In this document: positions 36,099 through 38,302 of the stretch, piece by piece
How the letters are laid out: every line of letters starts with the position of its first letter
How positions within the stretch are numbered: position 1 is the first letter of the stretch
From: Candidatus Rifleibacteriota bacterium
Lineage (GTDB): Bacteria > Muiribacteriota > Ozemobacteria > Ozemobacterales > Ozemobacteraceae
DNA length: 38,373 bases
Reading direction: 5' to 3'
Assembly: GCA_012520995.1 (NCBI GenBank)
Contig: JAAYNI010000077.1
Span: forward strand, 1 to 38,373
Translations under genes and position numbers: made by a program
The notes under the pieces: model-generated
What the model saw: only the letters and a program-made list of their open reading frames with translations
Database searches by the model: none
What the model was told of the DNA's origin: nothing

Positions 36099-36124
36099 CT
36101 GTTTAGAGAATATTGTTGCCTTTA

Positions 36125-37525
36125 ATGTTTGGCAAGATATCTAAAAATGTTGCCTTGCATGCAATGATTTTGCTTACTTTTGCTCTTGTAAGCTCATTTA
36201 TTGGTATGGCAGATCCTATTGTTTCAAGACGTTTTGGCAAAGCTTTTAAAGTAGGTTTGAGTGCATTGGGCTATGGTTTGCTTTGGGGGTTTTTTGGCGG
36301 AATGCTTGCAGGCGTGCTTTATTTAGCCATACAAACGGGACTTGTGCTTTCTTTTAGAGATTTTCTCACAAAGTATTTTCCTGAAAAAGGATATAACCTG
36401 TTTACAACTGTTTTTTTTATGGTTTGCCGTACACCCGCGTGGACCTTGTTAGGTGCAGGAGCAGGTTTAGTTCCAGGTTTTGCCTCTGGAACCAAGAAGA
36501 TTATGGCCAATGGCTTTATAGGCGGTATTTTAGGCGGAACAATTGGCGGAATGGTTTTTGACCCGATAGCTTTTACTGTGTATAGCCTTACAGGCAATAC
36601 CTCAGCTGGAATAAGCAGAGTTTTGGCTTTTTGCTCCTTGGGAGCAATGATTGGCGGCGGCGGTCTTTCCATTCTGGTAAGCTCCATTGCTATAACTATG
36701 ACTCGTAAGTTAAGGCGCAGCAGGCCATTAGCTTCTTTTTCATGTATGTTTCTTGGTGTCCTGATGCTTGTCTTCGGTGTTTTTTATACCCTATATTCTG
36801 ATATGCAGACCTCATCTCCGCGTGAAACTATGACTTTTGATAGGCAGAAGAATATGGATATGATAGAGAAAGCAGCCGACTTGATAAAAGAACCATTGAA
36901 AGCTAATCTGCTTATTCAAAGCGGTTATGGCTTAGGACAAGCTTTCGGTTCGGGAGTAGCAATTAAAAATAAAGATGGCAAAACATATATTTTGACAAAT
37001 CTTCATGTCTTGACTGGCTCGGCTTCGCCAGTGACACTTGACCAACTGAAAAAGAAAGTAAAAAATCTTAAGGTAACCTATTATGATTCCACAGTTGAGA
37101 AAGCCGAAGTGCTCTGGGTTGCTCCTTCGGGTATGGACGTGGCATTGATTGTGGCGAATACGCCTCTTGACTTCACAAGCTCCGCAACAATAGGAACCGT
37201 TGACAATGTAAAACTGGGAGAAAAAGTTTTTGCGATAGGGAATCCTATGGGCTTGGATTGGACATATACAGAAGGTGTTGTCTCCGGTTTTCGCAAAAAA
37301 AAGCTCTTATTAGGCGACGATGTCTCTGTGATTCAGATTCAAACACCTCTTAATCACGGCAATTCAGGCGGAGGACTTTATTCTGAAAAAGGTTTGTTGA
37401 TCGGTATTAATACTTGGATATATGAAAAGGCCGTAACTGAAGGTCTTAACTTTTCAATAGCAATTGATGAATTTGTAAAAGCTTTGTCAGATGAAATGAA
37501 AAATATTCTTTTTTCTGAAAAATAA
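36125..37525 (+). CDS. Membrane-anchored trypsin-like serine protease
   Basis: A 466-residue protein. The N-terminal half (about 10-225) has several membrane helices rich in Gly (LLWGFFGGMLAGVL, GFIGGILGGTIGGMV, LGAMIGGGGLSILV), a Gly-zipper-like region. The C-terminal half (about 255-466) is an S1/HtrA-type protease with a full triad: His294 (LTNLHVL), Asp338 (GMDVALIV) and Ser414 (HGNSGGGLY). There is no PDZ domain. Start choice is uncertain: ATG 36125 is used, while TTG codons at 36113 and 36116 sit nearer a weak AGAGA site. It lies 15 bases before the E2-like gene and shares its promoter, so it may process a protein in that pathway (inferred), but a general quality-control protease is equally possible. 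Confidence 0.82.
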   Translation: MFGKISKNVALHAMILLTFALVSSFIGMADPIVSRRFGKAFKVGLSALGYGLLWGFFGGMLAGVLYLAIQTGLVLSFRDFLTKYFPEKGYNLFTTVFFMVCRTPAWTLLGAGAGLVPGFASGTKKIMANGFIGGILGGTIGGMVFDPIAFTVYSLTGNTSAGISRVLAFCSLGAMIGGGGLSILVSSIAITMTRKLRRSRPLASFSCMFLGVLMLVFGVFYTLYSDMQTSSPRETMTFDRQKNMDMIEKAADLIKEPLKANLLIQSGYGLGQAFGSGVAIKNKDGKTYILTNLHVLTGSASPVTLDQLKKKVKNLKVTYYDSTVEKAEVLWVAPSGMDVALIVANTPLDFTSSATIGTVDNVKLGEKVFAIGNPMGLDWTYTEGVVSGFRKKKLLLGDDVSVIQIQTPLNHGNSGGGLYSEKGLLIGINTWIYEKAVTEGLNFSIAIDEFVKALSDEMKNILFSEK

Positions 37526-37540
37526 TGGAAGGTCTATGAA

Positions 37541-38302
37541 ATGAGTCTAAGGGATAGAAGATTGCTTGCGGATTATAAGAAAATGGTTGAAACTTTTTCT
37601 ACTGCTGGAAATATAAAGATCCAGTCTTATACGGGCGATCCTCCCGACAGATACATAATAGAATTTTTGGTTAAAAGTCCTGTTCTTTTGCCTAACGGAA
37701 CAGTTTCCTATAAAAACTCTCATACAGCAGAAGTCTATCTTACAAACACTTATCCTAGACAAGGGCCGCAGTGCAGAATGTTGTCGCCGGTTTTTCATCC
37801 TAATATAGCTCCACATGCCATATGTATAGGAGACCACTGAGCAGCGGGGGAGTCGCTTACACACCTAGTTATACGAATAGCAGAAATGCTAGCTTACCAA
37901 AGTTATAATTTAAAAAGTCCATTAAATGGTGAGGCGGCTCAGTGGGCAGAAAAAAACACATACATGTTTCCTTTGGATAAAACAGATTATAGTATGTATG
38001 CTGAAAAAGGTGATAAAATACTTACAGGAGAGGAGATAGCTTCGATCAATCTAGGAGAAACTGTTTCTTGTGCAAATTGCGGTGTACAGATCAGCGGTGA
38101 TGATATATTTGTTTGTTCAAGTGGTCACGCAGTTTGCAGAAATTGCGCATTTAGTTGTGTAACATGTGGCAAGGTTCTTTGCTTTAAATGTGTTGCATCT
38201 AAGTGTGCTATATGTAACTATTTTGTTTGTGCTAACTGTACATACAGTGATCCGGACCCCAAAAAGGTAACACATTTTCCGACAATATTTCCCCTTTCGT
38301 GA
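37541..38302 (+). pseudogene. E2 ubiquitin-conjugating-like + RING-like protein, interrupted by TGA and truncated by an IS
   Basis: One frame of 253 codons with a single internal TGA (37838-37840). Residues 1-150 are E2/UBC-like: GDPPDRYIIEF, a strand ending YPRQGPQCRM, then VFHPNIAPHAIC with the expected catalytic Cys95, as in the HPN...C motif of eukaryotic E2s. After the TGA the frame continues the fold (AAGESLTHLVIRIAEMLAYQ, SPLNGEAAQWAEKN). From about 178 a Cys/His-rich RING-like or treble-clef module follows (CANC, CSSGH, CRNC, CVTC, CFKC, CAIC, CANC). I recall bacterial relatives with Trp at the TGA position. A proper Shine-Dalgarno (AAGG, eight bases) precedes the ATG. Residues after Lys242 appear to be insertion-sequence DNA. 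Expected role if intact: conjugating a ubiquitin-like protein, with E2 and E3-like parts in one chain. Confidence 0.8.

Follow-up and report, generated by a model that had tools for sequence, protein, structure and literature searches.

Judged from homology, the operon content of relatives, an in-frame stop, the end of an insertion sequence, a gene fusion and the absence of partner genes from the assembly, the locus at the end of the window (the whole stretch of DNA that was analyzed, 38,373 nucleotides on contig C38) is in all likelihood what decay has left of a bacterial operon for ubiquitin-like conjugation, with its E2 gene interrupted and its partners gone. We suggest that the Ubl, E1 and JAB genes were lost from this genome, that a deletion joined the TM-FHA and RING-trypsin genes, that a stop arose in the E2 gene, and that an insertion sequence broke up its zinc array, the rest of which now lies on a different contig. 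The E2 gene is very probably dead in this genome, and the locus would no longer be functional. An earlier note had put the gene forward as the clearest candidate for an unusual system; a working or unusual system does not stand here, with the gene stopped and split by an insertion sequence and Ubl, E1 and JAB absent. The features that bear on this reading are collected in Table 1.

Table 1. Features of the interrupted E2 locus and of its continuation on contig C60 (window coordinates unless a contig is given)
Feature	Position	Strand	Basis
Membrane part of the TM-FHA protein, without the FHA domain	36113..36655	+	36-38% identity to L018 residues 113-284 and equivalents
Trypsin-like protease part of the RING-trypsin protein, without the RING end	36656..37525	+	53% identity to L018 residues 140-425
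UBC (E2-like) domain, readthrough-frame residues 1-150	37541..37990	+	PF00179, PDB E2 profile and fold matches, relatives
HPN motif (residues 86-88) and predicted catalytic Cys95 (37823-37825)	37796..37825	+	Invariance in relatives, UBE2C active-site alignment
In-frame TGA stop at residue 100, motif CIGDH(W)	37838..37840	+	Trp in relatives; TGA an ordinary stop
Cys-rich zinc array, 5' part (residues 177 to about 236), which the insertion interrupts	38069..38247	+	Invariant Cys/His
Left end of the insertion sequence (TGATCCGG...), reaching the contig end	38248..38373	+	Genome-wide copies with a shared edge
Remainder of the zinc array	G000:C60:128-310		Contig C60, beyond the other end of the insertion sequence

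The identity of the gene is supported by several lines of evidence. Read through its stop, the frame matches the UQ_con family (PF00179) in a Pfam profile search with E=4.2e-10 and 39.8 bits (cut-off 27), and the 99-residue piece alone falls narrowly under the family cut-off. It is the only UBC match in a search of the whole genome (2.84 Mb, 101 contigs). HPN (H86-P87-N88) and Cys95 are invariant in an alignment of 25 relatives, and a comparison of the family profile with the PDB places them on the active site of solved E2s, with UBE2C as the best match (E=5e-7). The protein is 44-61% identical overall to 12 full-length relatives and 55-65% identical to the E2s of Riflebacteria. AlphaFold models were compared with the PDB for the readthrough protein (mean pLDDT 73) and for L018, an intact relative (mean pLDDT 87); both match E2s there with E about 1e-5 and probability 1.0, at moderate TM-scores of about 0.5-0.65 by target length and with low confidence around the active-site loop. 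By these profile and fold matches, the window frame encodes a true bacterial relative of E2s, of the UBC family. The earlier note was therefore right about both the UBC-like domain and the HPN...Cys95 active site, and the HMM and structure searches with the readthrough product that it had proposed do find a UBC domain. Thioester formation with a ubiquitin-like protein would be the step predicted for such an E2.

The note had also described the two modules as joined in one frame; the gene is not one open frame, since a TGA interrupts it at residue 100 and the insertion sequence begins at 38248. The TGA splits the frame from 37541 into ORFs of 99 and 138 amino acids. Residue 100 is Trp in all 28 relatives found (motif CIGDHW), and UBE2C carries the same Trp in the alignment with the E2 family profile. 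Five further genomes of the class possess the E2 gene, in each case free of stops; it is absent from 18 of the 24 genomes searched. A separate second gene starting at 37886 was considered and rejected, as its start falls within the UBC domain.

If the TGA were read through as Trp or selenocysteine, a working, shortened E2-zinc protein could be made, and it is true that the frame is open on both sides of the codon and that the codon lies within the E2 active-site region. We nevertheless find this scarcely credible. No stop is commoner than TGA in the window, where it terminates 16 of the 30 genes counted, so that recoding offers no way out; recoding was rejected on this ground and because relatives have Trp at the position, and selenocysteine was rejected because they have Trp there and not Cys. 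The insertion sequence, moreover, cuts the zinc array regardless of how the codon is read. The decay that we favor looks recent, because 77 of the 78 positions up to residue 236 that are invariant in the 12 full-length relatives are unchanged here, the stop aside. For dN/dS, synonymous sites are saturated.

The second interruption is the left end of an insertion sequence. The last 125 bp of the window have ten matches in the genome, this one included, eight of them at 100% identity and most at contig ends. The edge TGATCCGG is common to all copies, whereas the sequence upstream of it differs in all ten flanks examined, so that the final 18 "residues" of the feature as first delimited (38248 to 38302) are insertion sequence and lie outside the gene. 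The 3' part that the gene lacks here is found at the beginning of contig C60, where it directly follows another repeated edge, ending ATATCA, which is the right end of the insertion sequence and recurs in the genome. Both gene halves are flanked by a matching CAG, suggestive of a target duplication of 3 bp, and the reading frame of the protein is consistent from one side to the other. From this we strongly infer that C38, the insertion sequence and C60 are adjacent. Beyond the gene end, C60 carries what is left of a gene for a zinc-ribbon membrane protein, truncated at its 5' end, followed by an intact DUF2752 gene, and the order protease, E2, zinc membrane protein, DUF2752 is thus kept across the two contigs, as in relatives. 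The insertion sequence, which is present in multiple copies and has TG...CA edges, accounts for many of the contig breaks in this assembly; its left end is found on C8, C18, C35, C38, C41, C83 and C101 and its right end on C60, C76, C80 and C93. An IS3-type transposase-like gene pair (ORFs of 299 and 93 amino acids, L057:3467-4725) lies near the E2 remainder on C60.

The tail cut by the insertion had been described as a Cys/His RING-like module. What stands of this is a conserved, Cys/His-rich, putatively zinc-binding tail: C177, C180, C192, H196, C199 and the subsequent Cys pairs are invariant in the 12 full-length relatives, the pairs follow one another at regular spacing over residues 177-236, and in relatives the array extends for about 60 residues further, with more CxxC and CxxH units. 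What does not stand is the RING itself. Pfam RING and Prok-RING models gave no match in the tail of the E2 protein, either in the window or in the intact relative L019, whereas neighboring operon proteins match Prok-RING_1 well in the same comparison. The tail looks like a tandem CxxC zinc array, and "RING-like" is for this reason a loose description. At this position, most planctomycetal homologues carry a short zinc ribbon or nothing. In a Sumerlaeota homologue (L030:6512-8128), the E2 and a few Cys pairs are followed by a long stretch of helical and membrane sequence where the zinc array would be.

The ORF that ends 15 bp upstream of the E2 gene bears a scar of its own. The ORF at 36113-37525 is an in-frame fusion, in which residues 1-181 are the membrane half of a TM-FHA protein and residues 182-470 the protease half of a RING-trypsin protein. 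The two are separate genes in the relatives compared, and the same fusion was not found among the loci compared. Lost from between the halves are the FHA domain, an entire RING gene and the RING-bearing end of the protease, and the fusion ORF is, by this comparison, best read as left by a deletion. It was correctly noted before that a membrane protease ORF lies directly upstream, and the operons of relatives do hold a membrane protease; here, however, it is a product of deletion and fusion. The note had suggested that it could be a processing or deconjugation partner; it is a serine protease of the trypsin/HtrA type, and in intact operons the JAB protein is the candidate for deconjugation. The protease gave PADLOC matches confined to its trypsin domain, and PADLOC models gave no match to the E2 itself, and so no link to a PADLOC defence system through it.

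The fused TM-trypsin ORF is possibly still expressed. One might propose that the locus has been repurposed, with the fused protein, and perhaps the 99-residue E2 fragment, serving another function. The fused ORF is fully open across its 470 codons, and its Trypsin_2 match (PF13365, E=8e-21) is intact over the full length, but no relative among the loci compared has the same fusion, and the closing helices of the UBC fold are missing from the E2 fragment. We consider repurposing unlikely. The open protease ORF does count, along with the conservation of the E2 at 77 of 78 positions, against decay as we propose it; this could mean that the damage is of recent date or that the fused protease remains in use.

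What an undamaged locus looks like can be seen in relatives from Riflebacteria, Planctomycetota and Sumerlaeota, which carry intact operons. The order in L019 is YukD-like Ubl (PF08817), ThiF E1, JAB, TM-FHA, Prok-RING_1, RING-trypsin, E2-zinc, DUF2752 and Prok-RING_1, with the Prok-RING_1 and RING-trypsin proteins being membrane proteins, and most of this operon is common to L020, L023, L028, L029, L030, L041 and L043. We regard the window E2 as the orthologue of the E2s of these operons. The link that the earlier note had drawn between such an E2 and Ubl, E1 and JAB genes is confirmed for the family, as the operons of relatives hold all three. The Ubl (L019:1628-1897 and its equivalents in L020, L023, L029, L030 and L043) has the motif PEITAG at or near its C-terminus, in some cases with a few extra residues beyond it, which makes it plausible that the glycine end is freed by the JAB protein.

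None of these partners was found in the window genome: searches of the assembly (96.4% complete) with the proteins of relatives returned no Ubl, E1 or JAB of this system. As positive controls, the same searches recovered Ubl and JAB from each of the five relatives that bear the E2, and E1 from four of them; in the exception, G018, the contig with the E2 breaks off within the JAB gene, so that its E1 is probably hidden in an assembly gap. Absence from the neighborhood alone would have been insufficient, because in two relatives (G006 and G013) Ubl, E1 and JAB sit on a contig other than that of the E2. The sole ThiF-type match in the genome (C27:138918) was rejected as the E1 of the system: it looks like TcdA, its closest NCBIfam model, although it scores below that model's curated cut-off, and the system E1 matched it over only about 90 residues. 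The search for E1-like, Ubl and JAB genes that had been proposed thus came out positive in relatives and negative here, and the expectation that the rest of the pathway lies to the right was not borne out, since the continuation on C60 consists of the 3' end of the gene, the remnant and DUF2752, and the partners are nowhere in the assembly.

It could be objected that the E2 gene is intact in the living cell, that the TGA arose from an error in sequencing or assembly, and that the other pathway genes lie in gaps. The E2 part is otherwise well conserved and the assembly is in 101 contigs; at 96.4% completeness, partner genes could indeed lie in gaps, which counts against decay, as do a possible sequencing error at the TGA and the fact that the link from C38 through the insertion sequence to C60 crosses contigs. 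An intact gene is very unlikely, however, given that the insertion sequence end at 38248 is exact and recurrent in the genome, with the remainder of the gene on its far side, that two operon genes joined in frame form a further, independent scar, and that three partner genes are all missing from an assembly that is 96% complete.

For the intact relatives, the domain families suggest a pathway, and the biochemical roles that we assign are to be read as deductions from family membership. The ThiF-type E1 would adenylate the YukD-like modifier ending in EITAG, which the E2 would then take as a thioester on Cys95. The zinc array of the E2 and/or the separate Prok-RING_1 membrane proteins could guide transfer to targets near the membrane, while the JAB protein would trim or remove the modifier, and the FHA and trypsin membrane proteins may sense or process. 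We tentatively propose that in these relatives the E2 with its own zinc array may serve as E2 and E3 in one for a YukD-like modifier at the membrane, working with the FHA and trypsin proteins, and that the window genome would represent a recent loss, with the fused TM-protease as a possible survivor.

By gene content, these operons bring Riflebacteria within the range of a known class of bacterial ubiquitin-like systems, and the window catches one genome in the course of losing such a pathway. The intact operons L018-L020, with their YukD-like modifier and conserved EITAG end, offer a better experimental start than the broken copy. In 2011, Burroughs, Iyer and Aravind (Mol BioSyst 7:2261, reference 6 of PMC11354881) reportedly described prokaryotic YukD-E1-E2-RING-JAB systems. 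The intact relatives share with them the YukD-like Ubl, ThiF-E1, UBC E2, JAB, Prok-RING_1 and a membrane peptidase; the window genome differs in having no Ubl, E1 or JAB, a stopped and split E2, and two membrane genes fused into one.

Bil (BilABCD) defence operons likewise hold Ubl, E1, E2 and JAB in one operon. The operons of relatives add FHA, RING and trypsin membrane proteins, and the window E2 is matched by no PADLOC model. BilB has been described with a CEHH motif (PMC11354881), and the same source mentions single E2 homologues in Riflebacteria; our literature search found no paper describing a YukD-E1-E2-JAB operon in this group. The bacterial operons of types 6a-6e of Iyer et al. 2006 (PMC1779556) also encode E2-like, E1-like and JAB proteins together, as the intact relatives do. 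In the parts of that paper that concern us, the E2s either form a fusion with E1, are without the classical His or are inactive, whereas the window E2 has the classical HPN and Cys, and those parts describe no E2 that has a zinc array at its C-terminus and trypsin and FHA genes as neighbors. With eukaryotic E2s (UBE2C, UBE2K, UBC13), the window family has in common the UBC fold, the HPN motif, the catalytic Cys and the Trp shortly after it; it is about 20% identical to them and carries a zinc array in the same chain.
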